Positions 5,973 through 29,330 of a stretch of DNA of 64,000 nt are shown here, piece after piece. The stretch is from Magnetospirillum sp. XM-1 (GTDB lineage: Bacteria; Pseudomonadota; Alphaproteobacteria; Rhodospirillales; Magnetospirillaceae), in the NCBI RefSeq assembly GCF_001511835.1, contig NZ_LN997848.1:744001-808000 (forward strand), read 5' to 3'. The notes under the pieces were generated by a model. That model had not been told where the DNA came from. It made no database searches and saw only the letters and a program-made list of their open reading frames with translations. Made by a program: the position numbers and the translations under genes. Position 1 is the stretch's first letter, and each line of letters starts with the position of its first letter.

Positions 5973-6078
5973 TTGGGCTATCGCCCAAACCCATCCGGGG
6001 TGATACCCCGGACCCCTTTTGATTATATCAATGGGGTTTGGGGCCCAAGGCCCCAAGCGGGTATGGGCGGCAGCCCAT
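5973..6078 (+). repeat. Multi-hairpin intergenic element, copy A
   Basis: Starts directly after the rdgB stop and ends at the hemW start. Five hairpins in a row: TTGGGC-TATC-GCCCAA (5973-5988); CCGGGG-TGATA-CCCCGG; TTGAT-TAT-ATCAA; TTGGGGCC-CAA-GGCCCCAA; and ATGGGC-GGCA-GCCCAT (6063-6078). Copies B (28388) and C (29224) have the same order with compensatory base changes. The last hairpin contains the first two bases of the hemW ATG, so it may limit access to that start codon. Confidence 0.85.
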
Positions 6079-7210
6079 GATCTCGTCCTCCCCCGGCTTC
6101 GGCATCTACATCCACTGGCCGTTCTGCCTGTCCAAGTGCCCCTATTGCGACTTCAACAGCCATGCCGCCCAAAGCATGGATCAGGCGCGCTGGCGGGCCG
6201 CCCTGCTGGCCGAGCTGGATCATTTCGCCAGTGAAACCGCGGGCCGCACCCCCACCAGCATCTTCTTCGGCGGCGGTACGCCCTCGCTGATGGCCCCCGA
6301 GACGGTGGGCGCCCTGGTGGCGATGGTGAAAAGCCGCTGGGCTTGCGCCCCCGATCTGGAAGTGACGCTGGAGGCCAACCCCACCAGCGTCGAGGCCGAC
6401 CGCTTCCGCGCCTTTCACGATGCCGGCATCAACCGTCTGTCGCTGGGCATCCAGGCGCTCGACGCGGAATCGCTGGCCTTTCTCGGACGCAGGCATTCGG
6501 CGGACGAGGCGCTGGCGGCGCTGAAACTGGCCCAGGCCATCTTTCCCCGCGTCTCCTTCGACCTGATCTATACGCGGCCCGGCCAGACCGAGGCCGGGTG
6601 GCGGGCCGAACTGGCCCGCGCCCTGGATCTGGCCGGCGAGCATCTGTCCTTGTACCAGCTGACCGTCGAGGACGGCACCATGTTCGCCCCCGCCCAAGCC
6701 CGCGGCGATTTCGTCCTGCCCGACGAGGACGAGGCGACGGCTCAGTTCGAGGCCACCCAGGAGCTGTGCGAGGCCGCCGGGCTTCCCGCCTACGAAATCT
6801 CCAACCACGCCCGCCCCGGGGCCGAGTGCCGCCACAACCTCACCTACTGGACGGGGGGCGAGTGGCTGGGCGTCGGTCCCGGCGCCCATGGCCGCTTTGG
6901 CGGCGAGGCGCTGGCCCAGGCGCGCTCACCCGGCACCTGGCTGGCCCAGGTGGAGCAAAACGGCCACGCCACCGAGACCCGCTATCCCCTCGACCCGGCC
7001 GAACGTCTGTCGGAACTGGCGCTGATGGGATTACGGCTGCGCAACGGCCTGGGCCCCGCCTTGCTGGCCGAGTTGCGCCCCGCCTTTGATCCCGCCGGCC
7101 TCGCCCGCATGATCGAGGGCGGCTTCCTGGTGGAGGACGCGCACGGCCTGCGCACCACCGACAAGGGACGGCTGGTGCTCAACGCCGTGCTGGGCGAGCT
7201 GCTCGCCTGA
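6077..7210 (+). CDS. hemW: HemW-like radical SAM protein (heme chaperone family)
   Basis: 377 residues. The N-terminus reads GFGIYIHWPFCLSKCPYCDF: radical SAM cysteines at about 17, 21 and 24 (CxxxCxxC) with the following Phe typical of HemW rather than oxygen-independent coproporphyrinogen oxidase HemN. FFGGGTPSLM, SLGIQALD and the HemW C-terminal domain with ISNHARPGAECRHNLTYW and GVGPGAHGR are present. HemW is known as a heme-binding chaperone; older annotations call it coproporphyrinogen III oxidase. An upstream in-frame ATG at 6038 lies inside repeat A and encodes only repeat, so the start is placed at 6077. No clear Shine-Dalgarno is seen; the start sits in the repeat's last hairpin. 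Confidence 0.92.
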   Translation: MISSSPGFGIYIHWPFCLSKCPYCDFNSHAAQSMDQARWRAALLAELDHFASETAGRTPTSIFFGGGTPSLMAPETVGALVAMVKSRWACAPDLEVTLEANPTSVEADRFRAFHDAGINRLSLGIQALDAESLAFLGRRHSADEALAALKLAQAIFPRVSFDLIYTRPGQTEAGWRAELARALDLAGEHLSLYQLTVEDGTMFAPAQARGDFVLPDEDEATAQFEATQELCEAAGLPAYEISNHARPGAECRHNLTYWTGGEWLGVGPGAHGRFGGEALAQARSPGTWLAQVEQNGHATETRYPLDPAERLSELALMGLRLRNGLGPALLAELRPAFDPAGLARMIEGGFLVEDAHGLRTTDKGRLVLNAVLGELLA

Positions 7211-7211
7211 G

Positions 7212-8570
7212 CTACTGGAACGCGCTGGGCGCCGCACCCACTTCCCGGGCACCCGTCGGGGCGATTTCCTTGACGGTCAGGCCACGTTCGGCCACGCCGC
7301 TGGCGCCTAAGCGGAAGATACCGTCCACGCCGGCGAAGCCGTTGGGGTTCTGCAGCACGGCCGAGCCGTAATCGCCCATGCCGTTGCGGGCCAGGGCGGC
7401 GGCGAGCGCGGTGGAATCATAGGCGATGCCGGCCAGCCCGCTTAAGCGGGGCGGCAGGGCGCCGAACGCCTTGGCGTAGCGCTGCTCGAAGGCCATATGG
7501 CCGGCGGCGGGCGGGGCGGGATACCAGCCGCCGACCAAAGCCGGTTCCTGGGTCAGCTTGGGATCGTCCCACAGCAGGGTGCCCAGCAGGCGCGGCACCT
7601 CGGCGCCGCCCTCGCTCATGAAATAGGATAGTAGCGAAGCAATGTTCCTGAGCCGCACGCCCTCGTCGGGCACCAGCACGGCGTCGTAGGCCGAGCCGGG
7701 GACGCCCTTGGACGTCACGCCCTTGCGCGCAGCGAAGCGCTTGACCACCTGGGTGAAGTCGGTGGCGGCGGGATCGTAATAATCCACGGCCACCAGCTCG
7801 AGGCCTTGGGCGGCGGCGGCCTCCTTGGCGGCATCAGCCACGGCGCGGCCGTAATCGTCAGAGCGGGCCAGCACGCCGATGCGCCGCATTCCCTGTTCAT
7901 GGGCATGGGCCAGGACGCGGGCCACCTGCGGGCCGGGCAGGAAGCCCAGGGCATAGACGCCGCTTCCCGCCACCGAACGGTCGGTGGTGTAGGCCAGCAG
8001 CGGCACGACCTGATCACGCGCCACCGGCGCCGCCGCCTTGACCTCGAAGCTGAACACCGGGCCCAGCACGATGGTGGCGCCCTGGGCCATGGCCGCGCTC
8101 GCGGCGGCGGCGGCGCCTTCGGCGGTGCCCTTGGTGTCGAGCGGAATCAGGCTGAACTTGGCATCGGCGATCTCGAACAGCGCCAGCTGCGCGGCGTTGG
8201 ACAGGGCCTGGCCGATGGCGGCCTGCGGCCCCGACAGCGGCAGCAGCAGGGCGGCGCGCACCTCGCCCTGATGGAGGGTCCGGGCGGGGGCCGGCATGGA
8301 GGGAGGGACGGCTTGCGGCAGGCTGGCCACCTGCGGCTCGGCCGAAGCCGGAGCGGGAACGGAAGCGGGCGCGTCCTTGGCCGCCGGAGCCGTCTTGGCG
8401 GCGGCGGGCGGCGGGACGGGAGCCGGAGCGGACTGCGCCTGGGGAGCGGGCTTGGTTCCGCCGAGCCAAGGTGGTAACTCTGACGCCTGTTGACAGCCCG
8501 AAACCATCAGCATGGCGGCAAGCAATGGCAGGAACGGGGCGGGGCGCCGGAAAAAGCCCAAATGGCGCAA
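7212..8570 (-). CDS. LppC/LpoA-like penicillin-binding-protein activator lipoprotein
   Basis: About 452 residues. The N-terminus is a lipoprotein signal peptide ending LLAAMLMVSGC (lipidated Cys near 26), then a Pro/Ala-rich linker (about 35-105), then a periplasmic type-I substrate-binding-like fold (from VRAALLLPLSGPQAAIGQAL on), with GVLARSDDYGRAVADAA typical of ABC-binding/LpoA proteins. LpoA activates peptidoglycan synthase PBP1A in gammaproteobacteria; the same role here is inference. Start: a TTG at 8570 has an excellent GAGGAGG site 6 bases upstream, whereas longer upstream readings lack one and add an Arg-rich stretch that would spoil the signal peptide. Divergent from rsmI, as in many proteobacteria. 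Confidence 0.88.
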   Translation of the reverse strand: MRHLGFFRRPAPFLPLLAAMLMVSGCQQASELPPWLGGTKPAPQAQSAPAPVPPPAAAKTAPAAKDAPASVPAPASAEPQVASLPQAVPPSMPAPARTLHQGEVRAALLLPLSGPQAAIGQALSNAAQLALFEIADAKFSLIPLDTKGTAEGAAAAASAAMAQGATIVLGPVFSFEVKAAAPVARDQVVPLLAYTTDRSVAGSGVYALGFLPGPQVARVLAHAHEQGMRRIGVLARSDDYGRAVADAAKEAAAAQGLELVAVDYYDPAATDFTQVVKRFAARKGVTSKGVPGSAYDAVLVPDEGVRLRNIASLLSYFMSEGGAEVPRLLGTLLWDDPKLTQEPALVGGWYPAPPAAGHMAFEQRYAKAFGALPPRLSGLAGIAYDSTALAAALARNGMGDYGSAVLQNPNGFAGVDGIFRLGASGVAERGLTVKEIAPTGAREVGAAPSAFQ

Positions 8571-8602
8571 GACAAGCCTCCTCGGACGACGGCCCCGGAG
8601 CC

Positions 8603-9502
8603 TTGGAGCCCGGCGGCGACACTGAGGCGAAAGGTAGACCCTGGGCACGCGGAAGTAAACCAAGCGCCGGCCTCTATCTGGTCGCCACCCCCATCGGCAA
8701 TCTGGGCGACATCACGCTGAGGGCCCTCGAGGTGCTGGGCCACGCCGATCTGGTGGCCTGCGAGGATACCCGCGTCACCGGCAAGCTGATGCAGCTGCTG
8801 GGCCTGAAAGCCCCGCTCACCCCCTATCACGACCACAACGCCGACAAGGCGCGGCCCGCGCTGCTCGCCCGCCTCGGCAGGGGCGAGGTGGTCGCGCTGG
8901 TGTCCGACGCCGGCACCCCCATGGTCTCGGACCCGGGATTCAAGCTGGTTCGGGATTGCATCGAATCGGGTATCTCCGTCACCGCCCTGCCCGGCGCCTC
9001 GGCGGTTCTGACGGCTTTACAACTATCAGGCATTGCTTCCGAGCGATTCCTCTTCGCCGGCTTCCTGCCGTCCAAGGGGGCGGCGCGCCGCGCCGCGCTG
9101 CAGGAGCTGGCCCAGGTCCCCGCCACCTTGGTGTTTTACGAATCCCCCCACCGGACGGGGGAGTCCCTGGCCGACATGGTCACCGTGCTGGGCGACCGGA
9201 TGGGGGCGGTGACCCGCGAGCTGACCAAGCTGCACGAGGAGGTGGTCCGGGGCAGCCTGTCCGAACTGGCCGGTCGCTATGGCGATTCGCCGCCGCGCGG
9301 CGAAGTGGCCATCGTCGTCTCGGGACCCCAGGCGGGGGGACCGGCCACGCCGGCCGACATGGAGGGCCGTTTGCGCGCTGAAGTGGAAAAAGGCCTTTCC
9401 ATCAAAGATGCCAGCGCCCTGGTGGCGGCCGAAACCGGCCATCCGAGGCGCGATGTCTACGCCACGGCGCTGCGACTGTTCCGAGGGGGCAACGAGGAAT
9501 GA
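8603..9502 (+). CDS. rsmI: 16S rRNA (cytidine-1402-2'-O)-methyltransferase
   Basis: SAM-dependent enzyme that 2'-O-methylates C1402 in the decoding centre of 16S rRNA. The tetrapyrrole-methylase fold begins GLYLVATPIGNLGDITLRAL and continues with ACEDTRVTGKL, VALVSDAGTPMVSDPG and LPGASAVLTALQLSG, all diagnostic. The start is uncertain: no ATG with a ribosome-binding site lies near the domain. TTG at 8603 gives 22 residues before the fold; ATG at 8525 or GTG at 8471 would make the gene overlap the divergent lipoprotein gene. Its stop overlaps yraN by 4 bases. Confidence 0.93.
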   Translation: MEPGGDTEAKGRPWARGSKPSAGLYLVATPIGNLGDITLRALEVLGHADLVACEDTRVTGKLMQLLGLKAPLTPYHDHNADKARPALLARLGRGEVVALVSDAGTPMVSDPGFKLVRDCIESGISVTALPGASAVLTALQLSGIASERFLFAGFLPSKGAARRAALQELAQVPATLVFYESPHRTGESLADMVTVLGDRMGAVTRELTKLHEEVVRGSLSELAGRYGDSPPRGEVAIVVSGPQAGGPATPADMEGRLRAEVEKGLSIKDASALVAAETGHPRRDVYATALRLFRGGNEE

Positions 9503-9888
9503 ATTCCGCACCCCGTTCGCGCTCCCATCAGGCGGCGCAACGGCGCGGCCGGATGGCGGAGCGGATTGCCGCCCTGTTTTTGCGCCTCAAGGGTTATGCA
9601 ATCCTGGCCCAAGGGCTGAAATCCGGCCGGGGATCGGGGGCGGGCGAGGTGGATCTGGTGGCCCGGCGCGGCGATCTGGTGGCCTTCGTCGAGGTCAAGA
9701 ACCGCCCCAGCCTAAACCAAGCTATTGAATCTCTTACATCTTTTCAGAGACAGCGGATCGAGCGCTCCGCGGCCGCCTTCCTGGCCCGACGGCCCGAGCT
9801 GGCCCGCTGCGGCGTGCGCTTCGACATGGTGCTGGTCGCCCCCTGGCGCCTGCCCCGCCATATCCCCGACGCTTGGAGAATTGATTAG
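9499..9888 (+). CDS. yraN: YraN family (UPF0102) nuclease-like protein
   Basis: 129 residues, an endonuclease-like fold with the conserved GEVDLVARRGDLVAFVEVKNR (D and E-x-K of a PD-(D/E)xK-type core), preceded by AERIAALFLRLKGYAILAQ. The biological role of the family is not established. Its ATG overlaps the rsmI stop (ATGA); rsmI-yraN is a widely conserved pair. Confidence 0.93.
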   Translation: MNSAPRSRSHQAAQRRGRMAERIAALFLRLKGYAILAQGLKSGRGSGAGEVDLVARRGDLVAFVEVKNRPSLNQAIESLTSFQRQRIERSAAAFLARRPELARCGVRFDMVLVAPWRLPRHIPDAWRID

Positions 9889-9950
9889 CGACTCGCGCCC
9901 GCCGTACACTGGGGGCCGAAATCCTCTGCCGTTCATCAAGGAGAGTCCCC

Positions 9951-10550
9951 TTGCGCCCGCTGCTCAATGCCCTGCTGATCGCCGCCATGGGCGGAATGCT
10001 GTCCGGCTGCGCCGCCACCGTGGTGGGGGCCGGCGCCTCGGCCGGCGTGGCCGCCGCCGAGGAGCGCGGCCTGGACGGCGCCGTCGATGACCTGAAAATC
10101 AGGACGGAAATCAATCACTTATGGTTCCAGAAGGATGTGGAGATGTACCGCAAGGTCACTCTCAACATCTCGGAAGGCCGGGTGATGCTGACCGGTCTGG
10201 TCGCCACCGAGCAGGCCCGCGCCGACGCGGTGCGCCTGTGCTGGCAGGTGGGCGGTGTCAAGGAGGTCCTGAACGAGATCAAGGTGGTGGCCGCCGGCGA
10301 ATCCGGCTGGGACCAGGCCAACGATTTGTGGATCCAGAACAAGCTGAAGGCCCGGCTGCTCACCGACGGCGACGTGAAGAACATCAACTACATCGTCGAT
10401 GTCACCGATTCCGTGGTCTACCTGCTGGGCATCGCCCAGAGCAGCGCCGAGCTGGACCGGGTGATCGCCCATGCCCGCGACGTCAGCGGGGTGAAGCGGG
10501 TGATCAGCCATGTGCGCCTGAAGACCGATCCCAAGCGGAACGGCGGCTGA
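9951..10550 (+). CDS. BON-domain lipoprotein (OsmY/DolP-like)
   Basis: 199 residues. TTG start supported by AAGGAGAG 5 bases upstream. Signal peptide [20 protein letters not shown] places a lipidated Cys at residue 20. Two BON domains follow (about 50-115 and 120-190), each with the pattern of Val/Gly-rich strands ([36 protein letters not shown]). Architecture resembles DolP (YraP), an outer-membrane lipoprotein of envelope integrity, which also lies beside rsmI-yraN in enterobacteria; equivalence is inferred from domains and context. It is coupled to the next gene by a TGATG overlap. Confidence 0.9.
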
Positions 10551-11398
10551 TGAGCGAGGCCGCCGCCCGGGTGCGCGAACGCCTGACGGCCCTGGGCCGG
10601 CTGGAGGATCGCGACCTGGACCCGGCGGAACCCGCGCTGCTGCTGGCCGCCCTGGGCCAGGCGCGGCGGGGAGCCCTTCTGGACATCGCCCCCTATCTGG
10701 CCCTGCTCGACGAGATGGCCGCCCAATTGCGGACCGAGGCGGAAGATTGCCCCGACGCCGAGGCCCTGGCCCTTCGCCTGTTCCAGCTGTTGGGACGCCG
10801 CCATCGCTTCCAGGGCGACGAGCGCGACGACGACGATCTGGGCGATCTGGACCTGCTGACCGTGATGGATCGCCGCCGCGGCGGCAACGACGCGCTGGGC
10901 CTGCTGGCCCTGGCGGTGACCCGGCGGGCCGGGATGGTGGCCGAGGGGCTGGCCTTTCCCGCCCATTTCCTGCTGCGCTTAGGGCTCGCCGACGGCAGCC
11001 GGGTGATCGTCGATCCCCTGGGCGGCGGCCAGCCGCTGTCCGCGCCCGATCTTCGCGCCATGCTGAAGGCGGCCGCCGGCCTGGACGCCGAGCTGGAACC
11101 GGCCCATTACGCCGCCATGAGCAACCGCGACCTGCTGCTCAGGCTGGGCAACGCCGCCAAGCTGCGGCTGCTTCGCCTGGGCTACGTGGATCGCGCCCTG
11201 GCCATGGTGGAATCCCTGCTGCTGGTGGCCCCCGACGCCTGCCTGTTGTGGCGCGAGGCCGGGCTGATGCACATGCGGCTCGACCACGCCGCCCAGGCCG
11301 TCGCGGCGCTCGAGCAATTCCTGGCCCGCACCTCCAGCGCCCAGGCCAAGGCCCGCACCCTGGCGCTGCTGGCCGAGCTGAGACGCCGCCTGACCTGA
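10550..11398 (+). CDS. SirB1-type transglutaminase-like/TPR protein
   Basis: 282 residues. The central part shows the SirB1/transglutaminase-like core ([33 protein letters not shown]), followed by a helical C-terminus with a TPR-like repeat ([34 protein letters not shown]). The usual catalytic Cys of transglutaminases is not evident: the core helix reads [14 protein letters not shown] where related proteins have a Ser/Cys-rich helix. It is probably non-enzymatic or a scaffold; function unknown. Start codon overlaps the previous stop by one base. Confidence 0.8.
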
Positions 11399-11415
11399 AC
11401 AAGAAGGACCCCGTC

Positions 11416-12363
11416 ATGAGCCTTGCCGTCGCCATCCAGATGGATCCCATCGAGTCCATCGACATCGATGCCGATTCCACCTTCGTCCTGGCGCTGGAGG
11501 CCGAGAAGCGGGGCCATGTCCTGTACCATTACCTGCCGCGCGACCTGGCGCTGAGAAACGGCAAGATCCTGGCCCGCGTGCGGCCCCTGACGGTGCGCCG
11601 GGTCAAGGGCGACCATTTCAGCCTGGGCGAGGCCAGGACCATGGACCTGGCGGAGATGGACGTGGTGCTGATGCGCCAGGACCCGCCCTTCGACATGGCC
11701 TACATCACCGCCACCCACCTGTTGGACCACATCCATCCCCGCACCCTGGTGGTCAACGACCCCACCCATGTGCGCAACGCCCCGGAAAAGCTGCTGGTCA
11801 CCCATTTCGGCGATCTGATGCCGCCCACCCTGATCACCTCGGACCGCGAGCAGATCCTGGATTTCAGGGACGAGCACAAAGACATCATCGTCAAGCCACT
11901 GTTCGGCAACGGCGGCGCGGGCGTTTTCCACCTGCTGCCCGGCGACGAGAACCTCAATTCCCTGCTGGAGATGTTCACCCAGCTCTACCGCGAGCCGGTG
12001 ATGGTCCAGCGCTATCTGCCCGAGGTGCGCCAGGGCGACAAGCGCATCATTCTGGTGGACGGCGTGGCGGTGGGCGCGGTGAACCGCGTGCCGGCCGAGG
12101 GCGAGGCCCGCTCCAACCTGCATGTGGGCGGCACCGCCAAACCCACCACGCTGACGGCCCGTGAACAGGAGATCTGCGCCGCCATCGGCCCGACGCTCAA
12201 GGAACGCGGCCTGATTTTCGTGGGCATCGACGTCATCGGCGACTACCTGACCGAGATCAACGTCACCTCGCCCACCGGCATCCAGCAGATCGATCGGTTC
12301 GATGGCGTGTGCATCGAGGGCCTGATCTGGGACGCCATCGAAGCTCGCAGGGCGTCTTCATAA
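11416..12363 (+). CDS. gshB: Glutathione synthetase
   Basis: ATP-grasp ligase joining gamma-glutamylcysteine and glycine to make glutathione. 315 residues, normal length. N-terminus [70 protein letters not shown] (nucleotide lid) and [21 protein letters not shown] (metal/ATP residues) are all GshB signatures. AAGAAGGA precedes the ATG. Last gene of the run starting at rsmI; the region after it has no gene for 0.8 kb. Confidence 0.97.
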
Positions 12364-12474
12364 ACTGTTATAACCTTCAGATATTTCATAAATTCCCCCA
12401 TCCGCGATCAACGGATGCAGTTGCGCGAGCCATTGTCGCGCCACTGCGACTGCGTTTGTGGTTGAGAAAATCGG

Positions 12475-12522
12475 GTCCCCCGGACCTCTCAACTGCGTTT
12501 GCGGTTGAGAGGTCCGGGGGAC
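12475..12522. repeat. 19-bp perfect inverted repeat (hairpin, 10-nt loop)
   Basis: Left arm 12475-12493 (GTCCCCCGGACCTCTCAAC) pairs exactly with 12504-12522; the loop is TGCGTTTGCG. The stem extends by AAATC/GATTT beyond a 2-base bulge. The loop plus the start of the right arm duplicates the sequence at 12449-12466. No T-tract follows, so it is not a typical intrinsic terminator. Confidence 0.9.
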
Positions 12523-12910
12523 GATTTGACCAGCGACCGGCCCAGGATTTGAGCGGAGACGTCCGCACCTTGATTAACGGATGTTTTTCCTATTTTCTTG
12601 CCTCGCCTTCCTTCGCCTCGACGCTGTCGACGCAGAATGGCGAATCAGGCGATTGGAAAAGGCCAACAGGCGGCAACAACCGAATGGCGACCACGCCATT
12701 CTCGCCGCCAATGGGAAGCCGGCCGGATTAACGGGCCTCCAGGCCGCAGGTTTTCCTTCCGGAAACCATATCGGCCATGGCCGGACGGCCGCAGCCGGCG
12801 GGCGATCCCCTCGGGCCGGCGGTGTTCCGACCCCGTCCCGCCCCTGCCGGAACCATCTTGCGTCACGGCCTGAACGAATGCCCCCTTCTCTCAGTTCCCC
12901 ATCGCCGCCA

Positions 12911-12958
12911 CCCCGTCCGGCCGGCGGCGGATTCCACCCGTCCGCCGGCCGGACGGGG
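12911..12958. repeat. 17-bp perfect inverted repeat (hairpin, 14-nt loop)
   Basis: CCCCGTCCGGCCGGCGG at 12911-12927 pairs exactly with 12942-12958. No T-tract on either side. Second of two long hairpins in the gene-free stretch. Confidence 0.88.
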
Positions 12959-13181
12959 ATCGTTCCAGGCATCGGTCCCTGGCTCGAACTTGCCAGCGAA
13001 ACGATTCCCCGCAGGCGGATTGGCCCCTGGTCCCGTCCATCGGAGCGATACATCTTGAGGTTGCAGCTTCGGCGGCGGCCGGTTTGGCCTCCGGACAAGC
13101 TGCCGATTGCCCATTACCCCGGCTTATGGCATTCGGATGGTCCGTATCTCCCGCAACAGGGACACCGTCCGGGGCCGCGCC

Positions 13182-14270
13182 ATGAAGATCGAAGGCAATA
13201 CCGTCGTCACCTTGCGCCTGAAGGTGGCCAACCTGGATGGCGAGACCGTCGATTCTCCGGCCGAGCCCATCAGCTATCTGCACGGCGGGCACGGCGGACT
13301 GTTTCCCAGGCTGGAAGCAGCCCTGGACGGCAAGACGGCCGGGGATGCCGTCGACATAACCCTGGAGCCCAAAGACGGGTTCGGGGCCCGTGACGCCGGG
13401 CTGGTCATGACCGTGCCGCTGGACCACGTCGAGCAGCCCCCCAAGGTGGGCGAGACGCTGGAGCGGGAATATCGGGGAACCTCGCTCCAATACCGCGTGG
13501 TCGCGGTGGACGACCGCAACGTCGAGCTGGACGCCAACCACCCGCTGGCCGGCATGACGCTGGTGTTTTCCGCCACGGTGACGGAGGTGCGGGCGGCCAC
13601 CCCCGAGGAGGCCGCGGCGGAAGTCGCCGCCCTGAACCAGGCCGCCTGGGACTGGAAGGCGCGGGAAAGAGCCCTGCTCCAGGCCAGGGACGAGGCGAAG
13701 GACGAGGCCGAAGCCGCCATTGTCGCCGAGGCCGAGGCGGCGGGACTGGTCGAGACCACCTATGTGCCCCAGCTGGGGACCCAGTTCCGTTTCGTCTTCC
13801 GCTCGCAGACCCACAAGCTGTGCTGGCTGGCGCCCCTGTTCCTGTTGCCCGCAGTGGCGGCTTGGGCGGGCTATCGCGGCTGGGAGAAGACCTGCGCCGC
13901 CCTGCTCGTGCTGTGGCTCGCCTGGACCTTCCTTGCTCCGGCCGCCATCGGTAAGGCGATTAAGCTGTGGGGCTATCGGTTCCTGTTCTTCGACTTCTCG
14001 CCCAACCTCACCCCCAGCCGGCTGGAAAGCGGCATCGCCAACGGCGGCACAGCCCTTTCGGTTTTGGCGGTCGTGGTCTTTACCCTGGTCGCCTTGTTCA
14101 AGATCGAGCATCTGTCCGACCTGTTCACCATTATCGGCGTCGACTTGGCCTTGCTCTTCGCGATCGGCGTGCTGATGATGATCCTGTTGCCGTTCATGGT
14201 GATCATCCTCACCGCGTTCCGGGTCCGGCCGGTCGTCGACAAGCAACCCGCCGGCCAGCCGGCGCCGTAA
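13182..14270 (+). CDS. SlyD-like FKBP-type peptidyl-prolyl isomerase domain fused to a multi-span membrane domain
   Basis: 362 residues. Residues 1-142 match the SlyD type of FKBP, including the inserted chaperone flap: VTLRLKVANLDGETVDS, ISYLHGGHGGLFPRLEAAL, PKDGFGARDAGLVMTVP and the diagnostic LDANHPLAGMTLVF (NHPLAG at 119-124), ending VRAATPEEA. Residues 143-190 are a charged Ala/Glu helical linker, possibly coiled coil. Residues about 214-345 contain four or five predicted membrane helices. SlyD normally ends after the FKBP part with a His-rich tail, so this is an unusual membrane-anchored form. Metal-binding His-rich tail is absent. Start ATG has GGGG upstream; an earlier in-frame ATG at 13137 is possible. 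Role inferred: folding or proline isomerisation at the membrane. Confidence 0.8.
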   Translation: MKIEGNTVVTLRLKVANLDGETVDSPAEPISYLHGGHGGLFPRLEAALDGKTAGDAVDITLEPKDGFGARDAGLVMTVPLDHVEQPPKVGETLEREYRGTSLQYRVVAVDDRNVELDANHPLAGMTLVFSATVTEVRAATPEEAAAEVAALNQAAWDWKARERALLQARDEAKDEAEAAIVAEAEAAGLVETTYVPQLGTQFRFVFRSQTHKLCWLAPLFLLPAVAAWAGYRGWEKTCAALLVLWLAWTFLAPAAIGKAIKLWGYRFLFFDFSPNLTPSRLESGIANGGTALSVLAVVVFTLVALFKIEHLSDLFTIIGVDLALLFAIGVLMMILLPFMVIILTAFRVRPVVDKQPAGQPAP

Positions 14271-14344
14271 GCCCGTGAACGGGCATGGCAGCCATTGCAT
14301 ACAACAGGTATGATCCCCGCGCCGAATAGGGGAACCGCCTTTCC

Positions 14345-15859
14345 ATGACCACCCGCACCGCTACCGTCGCCTTTTCCGGCATCGACTGCCTCGACATCGA
14401 CGTTCAGGTGCAGGTGGCGGCGGGCATGCCGGCCTTCACCCTGGTGGGGCTGCCCGACAAGGCGGTGGGGGAAAGCCGCGAACGGGTCCGCGCCGCCTTC
14501 AACGCCATCGGCCTGGCGCTTCCCCCTAAGCGCATCACCGTCAATCTGGCGCCCGCCGATCTGTTGAAGGAAGGCAGCCATTTTGACCTGCCCATCGCGC
14601 TGGGCCTGCTGGGCGCCATGGGGGTGATTCCCGCCGACGAGATCATGGGCTATGTCGCCCTGGGCGAACTGGGCCTGGACGGTTCCATCGCTCCGGTGGC
14701 GGGCGTGCTGCCCGCCGCCATCGCCGCCAATGCCAGCGACAGAGGTCTGATCTGCCCCCAGTCCCAGGGCTCGGAAGCCGCCTGGGCGGGCGAGGTGGAG
14801 GTGCTGGCCGCTCCCTCCCTGCTGGGGCTGATCAATCATTTCAAGGGCAGCCAGATTCTCGCCCGCCCCACCCCGCGCCGCATGGACGAAGACGGGGCCT
14901 ATCTGGATCTGAAGGACATCAAGGGCCAGGAAACGGCCAAGCGCGCCCTGGAAGTGGCCGCCGCCGGCGCCCACAATCTGCTGATGATGGGCCCGCCCGG
15001 TTCGGGCAAGTCCATGCTGGCCGCCCGTCTGCCCGGCCTGCTGCCGCCCTTGGAGCCCGCCGAGGCGCTGGAGGTCAGCATGATCCACTCGGTGGCGGGG
15101 CAGCTGGCCGAAGGCCGCCTGCTCACCCGGCGGCCCTTCCGCGACCCCCATCATTCCGCCTCCGTACCCTCCCTGGTGGGCGGCGGATTGCGGGCGCGGC
15201 CGGGCGAAGTGTCGCTGGCCCATAACGGCGTCCTGTTCCTCGACGAGCTGCCGGAATTCCAGAGGGGTGCGCTCGAAGCACTGCGCCAGCCCCTGGAATC
15301 GGGCCGCGCCGTGGTGGCTCGCGCCAACGCCCACGTCACCTATCCCGCCCGCATCCAGCTGGTGGCGGCCATGAATCCCTGCCGCTGCGGTCATCTGGGC
15401 GACCCGGCGCTCGCCTGCTCCAAGGCGCCCAAATGCGGCCAGGACTACCAGTCCAAGATTTCCGGCCCGCTGTTCGACCGCATCGACCTGCATGTGGAGG
15501 TGCCCGCCGTCAGCCCCGCCGATCTGTCCCTGCCGCCGCCCGCCGAAGGTTCGGCGCAAGTTGCGGCGCGGGTGGCGGCCGCCCGCGCCCTGCAGCTGGA
15601 CCGCTACCGGGGTGCCGCCATCCGCACCAATGCCGAAGCCGACGGGGAATTGCTGATGAAGGTGGCCTCGCCCGACGAGGCCGGGCGCCGCCTGCTCACC
15701 GAGGCGGCCGAGCGCATGCGCCTGTCGGCGCGCGGCTGGCACCGGGTGCTGCGCGTCGCACGCACGCTGGCCGACCTCCAGGGGGCCGAGGCGGTCGGGC
15801 GCCTGCAGGTGGCCGAGGCGCTCTCATACCGAAGACTGATGCCGGGCCGCGCCGGTTGA
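14345..15859 (+). CDS. comM: ComM/YifB-type AAA+ Mg-chelatase-like ATPase
   Basis: 504 residues, standard length. N-terminal Lon-protease-like fold (MPAFTLVGLPDKAVGESRERV, AINLAPADLLKEGSHFDLPIAL-type pattern), then AAA+ core with Walker A MGPPGSGKSML, Walker B LFLDELPEF, the zinc-finger-like cysteines in AAMNPCRCGHLGDPALACSK and a C-terminal Mg-chelatase helical part. In Vibrio, ComM is a hexameric helicase promoting branch migration during natural transformation; in other bacteria the role is less clear. Stands alone here. Confidence 0.95.
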   Translation: MTTRTATVAFSGIDCLDIDVQVQVAAGMPAFTLVGLPDKAVGESRERVRAAFNAIGLALPPKRITVNLAPADLLKEGSHFDLPIALGLLGAMGVIPADEIMGYVALGELGLDGSIAPVAGVLPAAIAANASDRGLICPQSQGSEAAWAGEVEVLAAPSLLGLINHFKGSQILARPTPRRMDEDGAYLDLKDIKGQETAKRALEVAAAGAHNLLMMGPPGSGKSMLAARLPGLLPPLEPAEALEVSMIHSVAGQLAEGRLLTRRPFRDPHHSASVPSLVGGGLRARPGEVSLAHNGVLFLDELPEFQRGALEALRQPLESGRAVVARANAHVTYPARIQLVAAMNPCRCGHLGDPALACSKAPKCGQDYQSKISGPLFDRIDLHVEVPAVSPADLSLPPPAEGSAQVAARVAAARALQLDRYRGAAIRTNAEADGELLMKVASPDEAGRRLLTEAAERMRLSARGWHRVLRVARTLADLQGAEAVGRLQVAEALSYRRLMPGRAG

Positions 15860-15951
15860 GTCCTATCGCCCTATGACGTCTGTGGGCATTGCGCCTTTTG
15901 CGTGCCCGGCCCCATGCTCGGACAGCCGGTGAGAAATGGGGTCAATACCCG

Positions 15952-16626
15952 ATGAATGTCTCCGCACCGATTAAGGGCTGTGGATCGGCCACGGATAAGC
16001 GGCGTTGCCATGACATGGCGATGATCGTTACCGACGTGATCTTGACCCTGGCCCGCGAAAAGGCCCAGGACGGCAAGGTCGGACTGCACGACCTCGAACG
16101 CATCTCGGCGCTGATCAGCGGCGGCAGCATGGTGCTGGACGCCGCCTATATCCGTCAGGAAGAGGCCTGCCGCAAGGTCCACCAGATGCCCAAGGGCAAT
16201 GTGGGGGCGCGTTCCAACCCCTTCCACCGCCTGATGGTACGTCCCTTCGAGCATCTGCTGGCCGGCGACGGCATGGTGTTGCAGCGCGGCTACCTGCCCC
16301 ATTACTTCGAATTTTTAGAGCACGCCCTGGAAAAGCGCTTCGAGGCCTTCGAGCGCCATTGCCGCACCATCATCCAGGCGCTGATGGTCATCCACGGCAA
16401 CAATCTGACCTGGGACCAGTTCTACGCCGACAGCCGCACCGTCAAGACCCTGCAGGGCGCGCTGAAATTGCTGCGCGTCTACATGGACGGGCCGGAAGGC
16501 CAGCGGGTCTGGCACGCCTGCATGATGCGCCCCATGGGCGATTTGCCCCAACCGGCGGTCGGCCAGGTCAACCACATCCGCCAGGTCCTGCTGGAAACCG
16601 CCCGCGGGCTGGAAGCGGCAGAATAG
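15952..16626 (+). CDS. Conserved-looking protein of unknown function
   Basis: 224 residues, soluble, mostly helical. I do not recognise a family. Visible features: an N-terminal CGSATDKRRCH segment, a repeated pattern of basic and aromatic residues in the middle (HYFEFLEHALEKRFEAFERH) and a conserved-style TWDQFYADSRTVKTLQGALKL. Start taken at the ATG after GATGGGGTCAATACCCG; another Met (MAMIVTDVILTLARE) lies 21 codons on and may be the true start. Good codon-position GC bias supports a real gene. No operon partners. Confidence 0.6.
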   Translation: MNVSAPIKGCGSATDKRRCHDMAMIVTDVILTLAREKAQDGKVGLHDLERISALISGGSMVLDAAYIRQEEACRKVHQMPKGNVGARSNPFHRLMVRPFEHLLAGDGMVLQRGYLPHYFEFLEHALEKRFEAFERHCRTIIQALMVIHGNNLTWDQFYADSRTVKTLQGALKLLRVYMDGPEGQRVWHACMMRPMGDLPQPAVGQVNHIRQVLLETARGLEAAE

Positions 16627-16678
16627 GCGGATCGTTTCGGTCCGGTTGCCGTTCCTGAAAACGGTTCCGACAATTTTT

Positions 16679-16792
16679 AGACACGGATGGACGCGGATGC
16701 CGCTTCGCGGCCACGGATAAGCGCGGATAAAAGGAATCTCCCATTCATCCGTGAGCGGCGCGGCAGCACCGCATCCGCGTCTATCCGTGTCT
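16679..16792. repeat. 22-bp imperfect inverted repeat enclosing 70 bp (MITE-like)
   Basis: Left arm 16679-16700 (AGACACGGATGGACGCGGAT plus GC) pairs with 16771-16792 at 21 of 22 positions. The interior has further CGGATAAGCGCGGAT and ATCCGTG words. The element fills the gap between the orphan gene and the HIT gene. No transposase. A short related word, CCACGGATAAGCG, occurs at about 15988 near the start of the preceding gene. Confidence 0.75.
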
Positions 16793-16803
16793 GATGACTC
16801 GGC

Positions 16804-17172
16804 CTACGCCCCGGTCTTGGGCAGCATGTGACCGAGCTTGCGGCCGCCGAAGATGTGGATATGCAGGTGGGGCACTTCCTGGTGGCCGTTCTCGCCGATA
16901 TTGCTCAGCATGCGCCAGCCGTCGGCAGTAACGCCGGCCATCTCGGCCACCTTGCCCACGGCGCGCACCAGACCGGCGATCTCGGCATCCGAGGCCCGCG
17001 CCGAGAAATCGTTCATGGAGACATAGGCGCCCTTGGGAATCACCAGGATATGGACGGGGGCCTGGGGATTGATGTCGTGGAAGGCCAGGGTGTGCTCGTC
17101 CTCGTGCACCTTCTTGCAGGGGATTTCCCCCCGAAGAATACGGGCGAAGATGTTGTTGGAATCGTAGGCCAT
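16804..17172 (-). CDS. HIT-family (HINT-like) nucleotide hydrolase
   Basis: 122 residues. Histidine-triad motif HLHIHIFGG at residues 102-110 with the catalytic middle His. N-terminus NNIFARILRGEIPCKKVHEDE and FHDINPQAPVHILVIPK are typical of HINT. Family members hydrolyse purine nucleotide phosphoramidates. GGGAGAGAG sits immediately upstream of the ATG; the longer upstream reading is out of family. Lies 23 bases after hisE, same strand, the order hisE-hinT being common in alphaproteobacteria. Confidence 0.94.
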   Translation of the reverse strand: MAYDSNNIFARILRGEIPCKKVHEDEHTLAFHDINPQAPVHILVIPKGAYVSMNDFSARASDAEIAGLVRAVGKVAEMAGVTADGWRMLSNIGENGHQEVPHLHIHIFGGRKLGHMLPKTGA

Positions 17173-17195
17173 CTCTCTCTCCCGTGCAGGAATCG

Positions 17196-17525: not shown

Positions 17526-17625
17526 CGCACCCTCTCTTTAAACTTGATCCAGACCGTCATCTTTCCCCAACGCCCCTGCCTAACAGATGGCGGCGGGACT
17601 GTCACCCCCCTCAAGGGCACCCCCC

Positions 17626-18384: not shown

Positions 18385-18388
18385 GGGC

Positions 18389-19108
18389 TCAGGCCTTCAG
18401 GAGCGCGATGGCCTGGGCCACGTCGATGCGCCCGTCATAGATGGCGCGGCCCGAGATGACGCCTTCCAGCTTGGGGTACGCCTTCAGCGCCTTGAGGTCG
18501 TCGAGGCTCGACACGCCGCCCGAGGCAATCACCGGAATGGAGATGGCATCGGCCAGCGCCGCCGTGGCCGCCACATTGGGGCCGGCCAGCACGCCGTCGC
18601 GATCGATGTCGGTGTAAATCAGGGCGGCGACGCCGCAATCCTCGAACTTGCGGGCCAGTTCCAGCACGGTGAGGTCCGAGGTCTCGGCCCAGCCTTCCAC
18701 CGCCACCTTGCCGCCCTTGGCGTCGATGCCCACCGCCACCCGGCCGGGAAAGCGCTTGCACGCCTCCTTGACCAAAGACGGGTTCTTCAGCGCCACGGTG
18801 CCGAGGATCACCCGGCGGATGCCGCGCGCCAGCCAATCCTCGATGGTGGCCATCTCGCGGATGCCGCCGCCCAGTTGGACCGGGACCGTAACGGATTTGA
18901 GGATGCTGTCCACCGCGGCGCCATTGACCGGCTTGCCGGCGAAGGCGCCGTTGAGGTCGACCACGTGAATCCACTCGGCGCCGGCGGCGGCGAAGTCGCG
19001 GGCCTGGGCGCCGGGATCGGTGTTGAACACCGTGGATTCCTCCATCAGGCCCAGTTTGAGCCGAACGCAGGCGCCGTCCTTGAGGTCGATGGCGGGAAAC
19101 AGGAACAT
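18389..19108 (-). CDS. hisA: ProFAR isomerase (HisA)
   Basis: Amadori isomerase of histidine synthesis converting ProFAR to PRFAR. 239 residues. [17 protein letters not shown] includes the catalytic Asp; [32 protein letters not shown] and [14 protein letters not shown] (second catalytic Asp) follow, then [13 protein letters not shown]. It starts one base downstream of the hisH stop codon. Confidence 0.98.
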
Positions 19109-19109
19109 C

Positions 19110-19760
19110 TTAAGGAGTCCACGTCAGGAAGTTGGAAATCACCTTGAGCCCCGTGATCTGGGACTTCTCGGGATGGAACTGGGTGCCGACCATGTTGTCG
19201 CGGCCCACCACGGCGGTGACCGGGCCGCCATACTCCACATGGGCGAGGCAATGGGCGGGATTGGCCGGCACGAACTTGTAGGAATGGACGAAATAGGCGT
19301 GGGCCTCGGAATCCAGCCCGGCCAGCAGCGGATGGGACAGCCCGTCCGGCACCAGCTGGTTCCAGCCCATGTGCGGGACCTTGAGCCCCTGGTCCTCGAC
19401 GCCCAGCGGCACCACCTCGCCGGCCACCCAGCCCAGCCCGGCATGCATGCCGTGCTCGCGGCCGATGGAGGCCATCAGCTGCATGCCGACGCAGATGCCG
19501 AAGAACGGCACGCCGCGCGCCAGCACCCGCTCGGTCAGGGTCTCGGCCATGCCGGGCAGATCCATCAGGCCGGCGCGGCAATCGGCGAAGGCGCCGACGC
19601 CGGGCAGCACGATGCGCGTCGCGCGCTCCACCACCTTAGGGTCGTTGGTGACCGCCACGCTGAGGTCCAGACTGGCCTCGGCCACCACCCGCTCAAAGGC
19701 CTTGGCGGCCGAGCGCAGGTTGCCCGAGCCGTAATCGATAATGGCGACGACACCGCTCAC
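19110..19760 (-). CDS. hisH: Imidazole glycerol phosphate synthase, glutaminase subunit
   Basis: Class-I glutamine amidotransferase that supplies ammonia to HisF. 216 residues. [17 protein letters not shown] at the N-terminus, oxyanion strand [10 protein letters not shown], nucleophile in [10 protein letters not shown], and the His-Glu pair in TQFHPEKSQ complete the triad. A GTG start at 19760 overlaps the hisB stop (GTGA), which fits translational coupling; a longer reading through hisB in this frame is an artefact. Confidence 0.96.
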
Positions 19761-20356
19761 AGCGATCCCCCGAGGGTGCCCTTGGTCGAGGGCACGGCAT
19801 CGGCCTTGCGCGGGTCGATCTCGGTGGCGGCGCGCAAGGCCCGCGCCAGGGCCTTGAAGCAGCTTTCCACAATGTGGTGGTCGTTGTCGCCGTACAGGCT
19901 TTCCACGTGCAGGGTCGCACCCGCCGCCTGAGCGAAGGCCTGGAACCACTCCTTGAACAGCTCGGTGTCCATGGTGCCCAGCTTGTCGCGGCCGAACGTC
20001 ACCTTCCAGATCAGGTAGGGGCGGTTGGACAGGTCGAGCGCCACGCGGGTCAGGGCCTCGTCCATGGGGACATAGGCCGAGCCGTAGCGGGCGATGCCCT
20101 TGCGGTCGCCCAGCGCCTGGTTCACCGCCTGGCCGATGGCAATGCCCACGTCCTCGGTGGTGTGGTGGGCGTCGATGTGCAGATCGCCCTTGGCCTCCAC
20201 CTCGAGGTCCATCAGCGAATGCCGGGACAATTGCTCCAGCATGTGGTCGAGGAAACCCACCCCGGTCTTGACGGCGTACTTGCCGCTGCCGTCCAGATCG
20301 ACGGCGACCTTGATGCTGGTCTCGGTGGTATTGCGCGTGATGGCAGCCTTGCGCAT
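19757..20356 (-). CDS. hisB: Imidazoleglycerol-phosphate dehydratase
   Basis: Dehydrates imidazole-glycerol phosphate to imidazole-acetol phosphate. 199 residues; monofunctional (no histidinol-phosphatase part). Signatures: [36 protein letters not shown] (metal-binding His cluster) and [17 protein letters not shown]. Two ATGs are possible: 20356 is preceded by GGAGGG 4 bases away, and 20368 would add MEGP; the inner one is preferred. First gene of hisB-H-A-F-E, divergent from hslVU, an arrangement typical of alphaproteobacteria. Confidence 0.96.
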
Positions 20357-22918: not shown

Positions 22919-23503
22919 ATGGAAGATTGGGGCAAGGTGCTGGGCGGCATCGGCGGCACCACCCGCGACCTGGACGCGGGCGAGACGCTTTTCCGGCGCG
23001 GCGACGAGGCCCGCGCCGTGTTTCACGTGGAGCAGGGCCGCCTGCGCATGACGCGCTTCGGCCCCGACGGGTCGGCGGTGACCCTGCACCTGGCCCGCGC
23101 CGGCTCGCTGTTTGCCGAGGCCGCCCTGTTCGCCTCCCATTACCATTGCGACGCCGTGGCCGAGACCGCCGCCCGCGTGCGTATCTATCCCAAAGCGGCC
23201 TTGCTGCTGTTCCTGCGCGCCCATCCCGATCTCAACCTGGCCTTCTCGGCCTATCTCGCCCGCGAGGTGCAAAGGCTGCGCGGCCGCCAGGAGGTGATGC
23301 GCCTGCCGGGAGCAAAGGACCGAGTGGTGGCCTGGCTGACCCAATTGGGCGCCGCCGAGGATTCCGTCGCCCTCGACCGCCCCATTTCCGTCGCCGCCCA
23401 GGAAATCGGCCTGACCCACGAGGCGCTTTACCGCACCCTGGCCGCCCTGGTGGCCGAGGGAAGGCTGGAGCGTCCGGATAAAAGGGTGTTTCGGCTGAAA
23501 TGA
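22919..23503 (+). CDS. Crp/Fnr-family transcription regulator
   Basis: 194 residues. N-terminal cyclic-nucleotide-binding-like beta barrel (GETLFRRGDEARAVFHVEQGRLRMTRFGPDG, then GSLFAEAALFASHYHCDAVAE), dimerisation helix about 105-125, and C-terminal winged helix with ISVAAQEIGLTHEALYRTLAAL. No N-terminal FNR-type cysteine cluster, so it is not an FNR iron-sulfur sensor; the barrel contains a His-x-His-Cys near HYHCD that could sense metal or redox, which is speculation. GGAGG precedes the ATG. A dyad operator sits just upstream, suggesting autoregulation. Confidence 0.88.
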   Translation: MEDWGKVLGGIGGTTRDLDAGETLFRRGDEARAVFHVEQGRLRMTRFGPDGSAVTLHLARAGSLFAEAALFASHYHCDAVAETAARVRIYPKAALLLFLRAHPDLNLAFSAYLAREVQRLRGRQEVMRLPGAKDRVVAWLTQLGAAEDSVALDRPISVAAQEIGLTHEALYRTLAALVAEGRLERPDKRVFRLK

Positions 23504-23592
23504 TCGGGCTGCCGCCCAGACCTCCAGATTCCTGAAACAAAGGGTGGGTTCGGAAGGTTCTCCTCCCGATGGGGACCGGGGCAAAGCCCCGC
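23503..23592 (-). repeat. Multi-hairpin intergenic element, copy E (subtype 2)
   Basis: Begins at the last base of the crp-like stop and ends just before the XRE gene. In minus orientation it reads CGGGGCTTTGCCCCG ... ATCGGGAG ... CTGGAGGTC ... GGGCGGCAGCCCGAT, which lines up block by block with copy D at 59089-59203. The GGGC-GGCA-GCCC hairpin is shared with copies A-C. Confidence 0.7.
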
Positions 23593-23944: not shown

Positions 23945-24047
23945 GAAGATTCCTTTCCGGCCCTCGCCGGGCGCGAACTCCGTTCGCTTGGCCGCGGCCT
24001 CAATGGCCGCCGGAGCCGAAATCCGGCCTCATCGTCCGTCTTTCGTC

Positions 24048-25399: not shown

Positions 25400-25473
25400 C
25401 GCCGCGATCCTCTCCACGGTGAGATCATGATGTCAGGGCGAAGGATGGAGAAGAGGGACCCGGAAGGCAACCC

Positions 25474-27308: not shown

Positions 27309-27375
27309 CAGGCCGGTCCAGGGTAGAGTGCAAGTCCAGTCAAAGACATAAGGCGGGTTGGGAGAAAGAGCAAGC

Positions 27376-27846: not shown

Positions 27847-27904
27847 AGGTGTCCGTGCTACGCCCCTTGCCAGCCCTTTGAACGATTTTCCATCGGAGAG
27901 CACC

Positions 27905-28378: not shown

Positions 28379-28387
28379 GAAAGCCTA

Positions 28388-28493
28388 CTGGGCTATCGCC
28401 CAGACCCATCCGGGGCCAATGCCCCGGACCCCATTTTATTCATGAATGGGGTTTGGGGCCCTGGGCCCCAAGCGGGTGCGGGCGGCAGCTCGC
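28388..28493 (+). repeat. Multi-hairpin intergenic element, copy B
   Basis: Same block order as copies A and C: CTGGGC-TATC-GCCCAG, CCGGGGC-CAAT-GCCCCGG, ATTCATGAAT, TTGGGGCC-CTG-GGCCCCAA, GCGGGC-GGCA-GCTCGC. It occupies the convergent gap between secB and dnaQ, where it could serve as terminator. Confidence 0.88.
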
Positions 28494-28504
28494 CTATGGG
28501 TCGA

Positions 28505-29197
28505 CTATTCCCTGAGCCACACGGCGTTCTTGAGCTTGCCCACGAACGCCGTGTGCGCCGCGGTTTCCTCCTCGGTCGGGGCATGGGGCCGGGGCGCGCG
28601 GAACTCGCGCTTGGCCTGAACGGTCGACGCGGCGGCGGCGGAATTGCCGCCATTGCCCTTGCCGCCCCCCAGCTCGAGGCCCGGCTGGCGGCCGCCGATC
28701 AGCTGCAGATAGACCTCGGCCAGCAATTCCGAATCCAGCAGCGCGCCGTGCTTGGTGCGGTGCGTGTTGTCGATCTCGAAGCGGCGGCACAGCGCATCCA
28801 GATTGGCCTGGGCGCCGGGGAACTTCTTGCGCGCCATCAGCACGGTGTCGATGGAGCGGCTCATGGGCAGCGGCGGAAAGCCCAGCCGCGCCATCTCGGC
28901 ATTAAGGAACCGCATGTCGAATTCGGCGTTGTGGATCACCAGCGGCGCGTCGCCGATGAATTCCAGGAAGTCGGCGACGATCTCGGCGAACAGCGGCTTG
29001 TCCGACAGGAACTCGGCGGACAGGCCGTGGACCTTGAACGCCTCCTCCGGCATGTCGCGCTCGGGATTGCAGTAGCGATGGAAGACGTTGCCGGTGGGCA
29101 GGTGGTTGAACAGCTCGACGCAGCCGATTTCCACCAGCCGGTGACCGGACAGCGGGTCGAAGCCGGTGGTTTCCGTATCGAGCACGATCTCGCGCAT
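28505..29197 (-). CDS. dnaQ: DNA polymerase III epsilon subunit (3'-5' proofreading exonuclease)
   Basis: 230 residues. DnaQ exonuclease motifs: Exo I VLDTETTGFDP (Asp7, Glu9), Exo II VIHNAEFDMRFLN, Exo III HGALLDSELLAEVYLQL. A C-terminal Ala/Lys/Pro linker would bind the alpha subunit. The upstream in-frame reading through repeat C is spurious: the proper start MREIVLDTET has GGCGAGAA nearby. Lies beside coaE-aroE-maf, the classic alphaproteobacterial near-origin group. Confidence 0.96.
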   Translation of the reverse strand: MREIVLDTETTGFDPLSGHRLVEIGCVELFNHLPTGNVFHRYCNPERDMPEEAFKVHGLSAEFLSDKPLFAEIVADFLEFIGDAPLVIHNAEFDMRFLNAEMARLGFPPLPMSRSIDTVLMARKKFPGAQANLDALCRRFEIDNTHRTKHGALLDSELLAEVYLQLIGGRQPGLELGGGKGNGGNSAAAASTVQAKREFRAPRPHAPTEEETAAHTAFVGKLKNAVWLRE

Positions 29198-29223
29198 GGA
29201 TTCTCGCCTTTCGCCAGTAACCA

Positions 29224-29330
29224 TCGGGCTATCGCCCGAACCCATCTGGGGCTTATGCCCCAGACCCCCTTTTGATTCATGAATGGGGTTTGGGGCCCAA
29301 GGCCCCAAGCGGGTCGGGGCGGCAGCCCCG
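29224..29330 (+). repeat. Multi-hairpin intergenic element, copy C
   Basis: TCGGGC-TATC-GCCCGA, CTGGGGC-TTAT-GCCCCAG, a TTGATTCATGAA block, TTGGGGCC-CAA-GGCCCCAA, CGGGGC-GGCA-GCCCCG. Closest to copy A in the middle but with paired substitutions in three stems. The right half (29277-29330) is translated on the minus strand as the last 17 codons plus the stop of coaE. Confidence 0.88.

Follow-up and report, generated by a model that had tools for sequence, protein, structure and literature searches.

A dispersed family of five-hairpin, REP-like intergenic elements in Magnetospirillum, with pairing probably kept at the DNA level

Br-REP1 of Bradyrhizobium japonicum is an intergenic repeat of three palindromes that overlaps the 3' untranslated regions (3' UTRs) of convergent genes, is transcribed and occurs at about 200 sites (PMC5082802). 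Repetitive extragenic palindromes (REPs) also lie 3' of genes, and their frequent GT pairing has been taken as a sign of RNA function (PMC3733652). Paired changes can arise in another way as well; template switching can make compensatory changes in one step, and it can fix stems while the loop is kept; in rRNA genes it is linked to stable tetraloops (PMC8794818). Here we describe a family of intergenic elements of Magnetospirillum sp. XM-1, starting from a stretch of 64,000 nucleotides (the window; assembly GCF_001511835.1, contig NZ_LN997848.1, positions 744,001 to 808,000). A first-pass annotation of the window had reported three copies (A, B and C) that share five hairpins in the same order and whose outer base pairs differ in a compensatory way. 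The family has a defined structure with well-kept pairing, dyad symmetry, a characteristic position behind genes, empty sites, decaying copies, exchanged halves and nearly equal numbers of G.T and A.C mismatches. We consider it likely that it is a short, non-autonomous, REP-like, dormant interspersed DNA element family of the Magnetospirillum/Paramagnetospirillum group, in which pairing is kept at the DNA level.

Hairpin structure, pairing and dyad symmetry

A full element is about 103-130 bp long, typically ~106 bases. Its order is hairpin 1 (NNGGGC-N4-GCCCNN), ACCC, hairpin 2, a central stem, hairpin 4, GGGT and hairpin 5 (NNGGGC-N4-GCCCNN); the central stem, ACCCC..GGGGT, encloses an A+T-rich centre. 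Beyond the earlier description, ACCC and GGGT form a helix around stems 2-4, which makes a cloverleaf between two flanking hairpins. The sequences, coordinates and hairpins first given for copies A, B and C are exact (Table 1), and the paired changes are real: TTGGGC/GCCCAA (A), CTGGGC/GCCCAG (B) and TCGGGC/GCCCGA (C) in stem 1, CCGGGG/CCCCGG (A and B) versus CTGGGG/CCCCAG (C) in stem 2, and ATGGGC/GCCCAT (A), GCGGGC/GCTCGC with one G.T (B) and CGGGGC/GCCCCG (C) in stem 5. The loop of stem 5, thought to be a constant GGCA, is indeed GGCA in these three copies but varies over the family (GGCA 54, GGGA 33, others). Copies A, B and C fold much better than their shuffles on either strand, with z scores of -7.4, -5.9 and -6.2, respectively, and none of 200 shuffles of each was equally stable.

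Pairing was counted in 131 distinct copies, a set from which duplicates had been removed and in which each place is represented by its stronger strand. Watson-Crick pairs fill 755 of 784 cells in hairpin 1, 745 of 768 in hairpin 2, 969 of 1009 in hairpin 4 and 753 of 779 in hairpin 5; the central stem (492/648) and the closing helix (416/518) are paired more weakly. For the two outermost pairs of stems 1, 2, 4 and 5, Watson-Crick cells number 111-128 of 128-131 (87-98%), whereas shuffles average 49-70 (37-55%). This alignment was fitted to a covariance model and leans toward structure, but an unfitted check on 14 copies aligned with MAFFT gave 95.3% pairing in the correct register and 24-64% after a shift of one side by 1-3 columns. 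Minimum-energy folds also offer a long-range pairing of hairpin 1 with hairpin 5. It was rejected because the outer bases are Watson-Crick across the two hairpins in just 18-20 of 131 copies and locally in 116-125. Among orthologous copies, two-sided changes that keep Watson-Crick pairing (76 cells) outnumber one-sided changes (56 cells); two-sided changes that break the pair are found in 8 cells, and 876 cells are unchanged.

The left half of the element resembles the reverse complement of its right half. Over 115 copies the dyad score is 8.7, and shuffles score -1.3 (sd 3.6). The covariance model matches on both strands at 33 of 36 places in the XM-1 genome, and half elements are also found alone. 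Together, these results show that the element consists of two inverted two-hairpin units and is an imperfect palindrome. In each unit an end hairpin (NNGGGC-loop-GCCCNN) is followed by a CCC spacer, then by an inner hairpin (NNGGGGC.. or NNGGAGG..) and finally by one half of the central stem. The likeness of the two halves also means that terminal inverted repeats, by which miniature inverted-repeat transposable elements are recognised, are present. Right halves are of two types, GGGGT-TTGGGGCC.. and GGAGGT-TTGGAGGC.., and each occurs with differing left halves.

Number of copies, position and history

The first-pass annotation proposed a genome-wide search and noted that its case would fall if A, B and C were the only copies. 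This is excluded by blastn and covariance-model searches of the XM-1 genome and two further genomes, G009 and G011. In XM-1, blastn with copy A finds 22 places at E<=0.001. The covariance model, built from 14 copies, finds at least 36 distinct places, counting fragments, with a cutoff of E<=1, and 34 of them reach E<=0.01; this is a lower bound, as 150 of 4131 first-look candidates were scored. G009 and G011 have 139 and 70 matches, respectively, at E<=0.01, with both strands counted. Among 60 genomes searched, XM-1 included, 22 have matches at E<=0.001. Of these, 13 belong to the genus, from which 17 genomes were searched, 7 more to the family and 2 more to the order. A model search across the class matched 2 of 385 genomes, including XM-1, but its filters were strict and nine candidates were scored per genome listed, so absence there is weak evidence. 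Plasmids gave no match to the element. We also observed a weak match to the right half (query bases 58-104, 85% over 46 bases, E 2e-4) at 12925-12970 of an unannotated phage record from human faeces, MT835598.1.

Position relative to stop codons and orientation had been named as further checks. In 119 copies from three genomes, the median distance to the facing stop codon is 7 nt. These copies lie between convergent genes (47), codirectional genes (59) and divergent genes (10), and three are inside genes or unassigned; the counts are approximate, since genes were called by a simple codon-score script and some ends are wrong, with overlaps of as much as 63 nt. The background, taken from 1.2 Mb of the same genomes, has 1024 junctions, of which 142 are convergent, 741 codirectional and 141 divergent. 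Convergent sites are thus enriched (p 5e-11; p 2e-8 against gaps >=20 nt) and divergent sites depleted (p 4e-4). The Fisher tests used 400-kb data, in which one match with E=0.15 and two matches within called genes were dropped out of 47. Codirectional copies have the orientation of their genes in 27 cases and the opposite one in 32. In the 131-copy set, 49 are convergent, 25 codirectional in the same and 40 in the opposite orientation, 11 divergent and 6 remaining, and there may be a weak orientation preference (25 versus 40, p 0.08). In the broad sense, the family is REP-like: its copies are many, palindromic, intergenic, 3' of genes and seldom between divergent genes.

Comparison among genomes revealed empty sites and decay. 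At the locus of copy A, which lies between rdgB and hemW, 2 of 17 genomes carry the full element and 4 carry parts of it. Another 9 lack the element and have hemW near rdgB, and in the last 2 the two genes are not neighbours. One of the nine element-free loci (in G008) has another repeat between the two genes. To judge from the sequences, hemW in congeners without copy A seems to begin at the stop codon of rdgB or close to it. At the site of copy B, the element is absent from P. caucaseum SO-1, in which one base separates the two stop codons, versus 126 in the window. Over 400 kb of synteny, 10 elements or fragments of G000 were compared with G011, which has an element or a remnant of one at 9 of these sites, among the matches listed. 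In G009, 7 of 9 compared G000 sites have an element or a remnant, and an eighth has an element in the opposite orientation, again among the matches listed.

Several unusual sites were seen on the way. Some other syntenic sites hold different palindromic repeats in other species; one of these (cacagatgaacacgg.. / gacacggatggacgcgg..) takes the place of the element between genes (L116 ~4880-4985, L241 and several syntenic sites). Where G009 has the element, G011 has an apparent CGTC-type REP pair (CGTCACCCCCGGACTTGATCC..GACG) at ~2543860 (L276). In G009 at ~4906427-4906760 (L300), the element appears to be split by a nested insertion of ~130 bases, and at L124 5698-5850 a variant element is followed by a tandem repeat of the hairpin 5 end and a T-rich tail (GGCGGCAGCCCCCTGTTTTAATCTT x2).

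Copies also exchange halves. The type of right half differs in 5 of 34 scorable orthologous pairs, at 4 loci; for example, copy C has a type 1 right half, and its orthologues in the metagenome-assembled genome (MAG) GS7 and in G009 have type 2. One explanation of the paired changes is recombination alone, in which whole hairpins are copied between elements and both sides of a stem change at once, with neither selection nor template switching. These switches agree with it, as does the fact that a few stem variants recur many times among copies. Hairpin 5, however, has eleven fully paired outer classes. Exchange spreads variants but creates no new perfectly paired ones, and we regard recombination alone as a rather improbable account of the whole. 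Exchange nevertheless bears on the first-pass annotation, which read the paired changes as the signature of selection on RNA (or DNA hairpin) structure. That structure is maintained while the outer bases are free is strongly supported by the counts above. The RNA half of that statement fares poorly, as described below, and selection is not a forced conclusion, because exchange between copies is seen and template switching of the kind outlined in PMC8794818 has been published.

Mismatches, mobility and the upkeep of pairing

If one RNA strand were selected, G.U pairs would be tolerated and A.C pairs would not. In hairpins 1, 2, 4 and 5, the cells that are not Watson-Crick comprise 45 G.T, 37 A.C and 36 others, of 3340. 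The control was a set of 35 tRNAs, most of them from the XM-1 genome; in their acceptor and T stems such cells comprise 31 G.T, 1 A.C and 3 others, of 420, and the difference between 45:37 and 31:1 is significant (p 5e-6). With a single copy per orthologous group, the ratio in the element is 35:32. For copies between codirectional genes, the wobble falls on the transcribed strand in 16 cases and on the other strand in 20, that is, without bias. The stability of the whole element is also similar on both strands; the plus strand is better in 66 of 114 copies with RNA parameters and in 53 of 114 with DNA parameters. Near equality of G.T and A.C, the lack of bias toward the transcribed strand and the similar folding of both strands weaken an RNA explanation, and mismatches that are nearly equal for both strands are compatible with upkeep of pairing at the DNA level. 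On balance, the hairpins are more likely to be maintained in DNA, or equally on the two strands, than to serve as a single ordinary RNA.

The loops of the end hairpins are polar. Read outward, loops of the form c(GNNA or GNA)g are found in 103 of 129 copies for hairpin 1 and in 108 of 125 for hairpin 5, of which 19 and 49, respectively, are GNRA; the inward strand has none. With RNA as with DNA parameters, most copies (102-111 of 127-130) fold more stably on the outward strand. The two end hairpins bear their cGNNAg loops on opposite strands, which also weakens the RNA explanation, and a single transcript would contain such a loop in one of the two. In its title, the paper by Nakano et al. 2002, cited in PMC9969394, places d(cGNNAg) among four very stable DNA tetraloop motifs.

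Several observations weigh against a formerly mobile DNA element whose pairing is kept in DNA. One-sided changes among 41 orthologous pairs comprise 29 G.T, 9 A.C and 18 others, and this excess of G.T fits selection on RNA; p is 0.002 if the pairs are independent, which the 41 pairs are not, and 13 of the 29 G.T changes come from stem 4, in which a single T.G end pair turns up repeatedly. The cGNRAg loops, which are part of the GNNA set, are very stable in RNA too. No mobilising enzyme was found: PF01797 (Y1 transposase, or REP-associated tyrosine transposase, RAYT) is absent from the XM-1 genome, G009 and G011, and the Y1 genes present in 4 of 17 genomes of the genus have no element in the surrounding 1.8-3.2 kb. 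No target duplication was found either. For the flank tests, 4 of 119 copies shorter than 98 nt were dropped, and repeats of 3-5 nt flank at most 8 of the remaining 115 copies with the ends shifted by -6 to 6; 2-nt repeats reach at best 20 of 115 in the flanks, the higher values (37-101) falling inside conserved hairpins. Finally, there is no recent twin, as the best pair within a genome with unrelated flanks is 94.6% identical. Recent transposition was rejected on this ground, since no within-genome pair exceeds that identity save three G009 copies with identical flanks. Mobility is thus inferred from the element-free sites only. The three G009 copies (C1:2821423, 3490817 and 4319536) are near-identical (99-100%) with identical 30-base flanks and probably lie within a larger duplicated stretch.

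The one-sided G.T excess would agree with a structured RNA of the 3' UTR that is transcribed from either side, blocks 3' exonucleases or aids Rho-dependent termination, and insulates convergent genes, its compensatory changes coming from selection for RNA folding. Convergent enrichment, closeness to stop codons, the small number of divergent sites (10 of 119) and very stable folds on both strands all point the same way, and Br-REP1, which is transcribed, lies in just such overlapping convergent 3' UTRs (PMC5082802). Yet the overall G.T:A.C ratio and the wobble on the transcribed strand argue against it, and at the locus of copy A the element is reduced to parts in 4 of the 6 genomes that carry it. 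Nor does the element look like an intrinsic terminator: T occupies downstream positions 1-4 in 23, 39, 41 and 35 of 115 copies, so the T run is not seen, and a terminator scan of window bases 1-20000, which cover copy A, does not list it. A two-way 3' boundary role would give strand symmetry too, because convergent gaps are read from both sides; with both strands transcribed symmetric mismatches are expected, so what the mismatch data do is weaken an RNA role. Overall, we think that such a role is rather unlikely to explain the family, although a stable mRNA 3' end for transcripts from either side is a possible by-product of a DNA element.

Another explanation is that the elements are classical REP/REPIN dimers moved by a RAYT (Y1 HUH) transposase that has since been lost. 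Inverted dimer architecture, half copies, the intergenic 3' position and tens of copies would all be expected, and RAYT genes can be deleted while REPs remain (PMC3733652). GTAG occurs within 12 nt upstream of 8 of 115 copies (background 0.7), a slight excess, but is missing there in 107; downstream, CTAC is found in 5 (background 3.2). CGTC lies within 12 nt of the upstream end in 6 and of the downstream end in 9 of 115 copies, which is at background (6.2). The unit has two hairpins and not one. As there is no Y1 gene in the XM-1 genome and no element near the four Y1 genes of the genus, mobilisation by RAYT was rejected for the present genomes, and a lost enzyme of this kind seems unlikely.

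The history of a DNA element, which we prefer, would run as follows. Units would have dispersed at the DNA level, perhaps by way of single-stranded hairpins, into small gaps behind stop codons, where they were tolerated. In the three genomes examined they appear to be dormant now; they are inherited vertically, decay by deletion and swap halves between copies. Pairing would be kept up by exchange of whole hairpins, perhaps with hairpin-primed template switching aided by the DNA-stable cGNNAg loops, which would add new paired variants. No direct mark of template switching was found; loop inversion was sought as such a mark, and the number of inward GNNA loops is 0. A bolder version can be offered tentatively: this textbook covariation would be made and kept in DNA, with the end hairpins of opposite polarity acting as fold-back copying sites or as single-stranded substrates of an enzyme. 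In the fold-back case, the nascent strand would copy one hairpin arm from the other, and more than 100 copies could stay paired without a functional RNA. The usual case for a functional RNA is built on covariation. Because strong covariation is combined here with strand-symmetric mismatches and freely decaying copies, covariation alone could mislead RNA discovery. With 119 places in three genomes, and with both orthologous and element-free sites, the family is a good system in which to separate selection, recombination and template switching.

Copies in the window and relation to known elements

The window contains four full copies and one truncated copy (Table 1). Copy D has variant stems (TGGGGC/GCCCCA and TCGGGAG/CTCCCGA). 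The truncated copy directly follows a stop codon (23501-23503); the gene that ends there contains a weak CRP/FNR-like stretch, and a convergent gene lies on the far side of the copy. Copy A ends in AT, and these two bases open the hemW start codon (GCCCAT + G; 6063-6079). The coaE frame enters copy C (29277-29330), which supplies its final 17 codons and stop (to 29277). Repeats can thus supply part of a start codon as well as a protein end with its stop codon.

Table 1. Elements in the window and the parts of copy A (window coordinates)
Feature	Position	Strand	Description
Copy A	5973..6078	+	between rdgB (stop 5970-5972) and hemW (ATG 6077-6079), codirectional genes
Copy A, hairpin 1	5973..5988	+	TTGGGC-TATC-GCCCAA; opposite-strand loop cGATAg
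Copy A, multi-branch core	5989..6062	+	closing helix ACCC (5989-5992) / GGGT (6059-6062)
Copy A, hairpin 2	5995..6011	+	CCGGGG-TGATA-CCCCGG
Copy A, central hairpin 3	6012..6037	+	ACCCC ... GGGGT, A+T-rich centre
Copy A, hairpin 4	6038..6056	+	TTGGGGCC-CAA-GGCCCCAA
Copy A, hairpin 5	6063..6078	+	ATGGGC-GGCA-GCCCAT
Truncated copy	23504..23591	+	hairpin 1 and right half present, hairpin 2 gone; profile match 23516-23590
Copy B	28388..28493	+	in the 126-base gap that separates the stops of convergent secB (+) and dnaQ (-)
Copy C	29224..29330	+	between coaE (-) and dnaQ (-), opposite in orientation to both genes
Copy D	59091..59202	+	between convergent ybaK (+) and a ubiH-family gene (-)

BOX, RUP, ERIC and RIME/ABC mosaic elements of other taxa are likewise short modular palindromic intergenic repeats. 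In Rfam 15, the only family above its gathering threshold in the window is a tRNA, and 8 sub-threshold matches fall in 5 loci. No paper on such Magnetospirillum repeats appeared in the literature searched, most subscription journals being outside its reach. The first-pass remark that no named element matches thus holds in Rfam 15 and in that literature; the kind of element is known, though, from REP-like multi-palindrome repeats at convergent 3' ends. The family itself appears to be undescribed as far as these searches reach.

Compared with GTAG and CGTC REPs and their dimers, the family is alike in being intergenic and 3' of genes, mostly between convergent or codirectional ones, in forming inverted dimers and in having tens to thousands of copies, but the REP unit is a single tagged palindrome of 20-40 bp and the unit here has two hairpins and is mostly untagged (PMC3733652). 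A REP of the CGTC superfamily has a CGTC tag, a single stem of 8-9 bp and a CCA tail, where the present element has five hairpins. Unlike in the REPs described in PMC3733652, there is no clear excess of G.T above A.C when every copy is counted. TIRtrons also have inverted repeats, some of two palindromes, and are dispersed without a transposase gene as well; as presented in PMC3733652, their families are defined by the RAYT-like gene that they flank, and no such gene was found with the present element. Br-REP1 differs in having three palindromes, against five hairpins and a closing helix here, and the portion of PMC5082802 consulted describes no two-hairpin dyad for it. Its core, CCGGAATCTCGAGATTCCGG as given there, has at least 6 mismatches to each of the 119 copies and is absent from the window. 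In kind and not in sequence, Br-REP1 is nevertheless the nearest known element: like the present family, it is an alphaproteobacterial intergenic repeat that is distributed unevenly among related species (PMC5082802).

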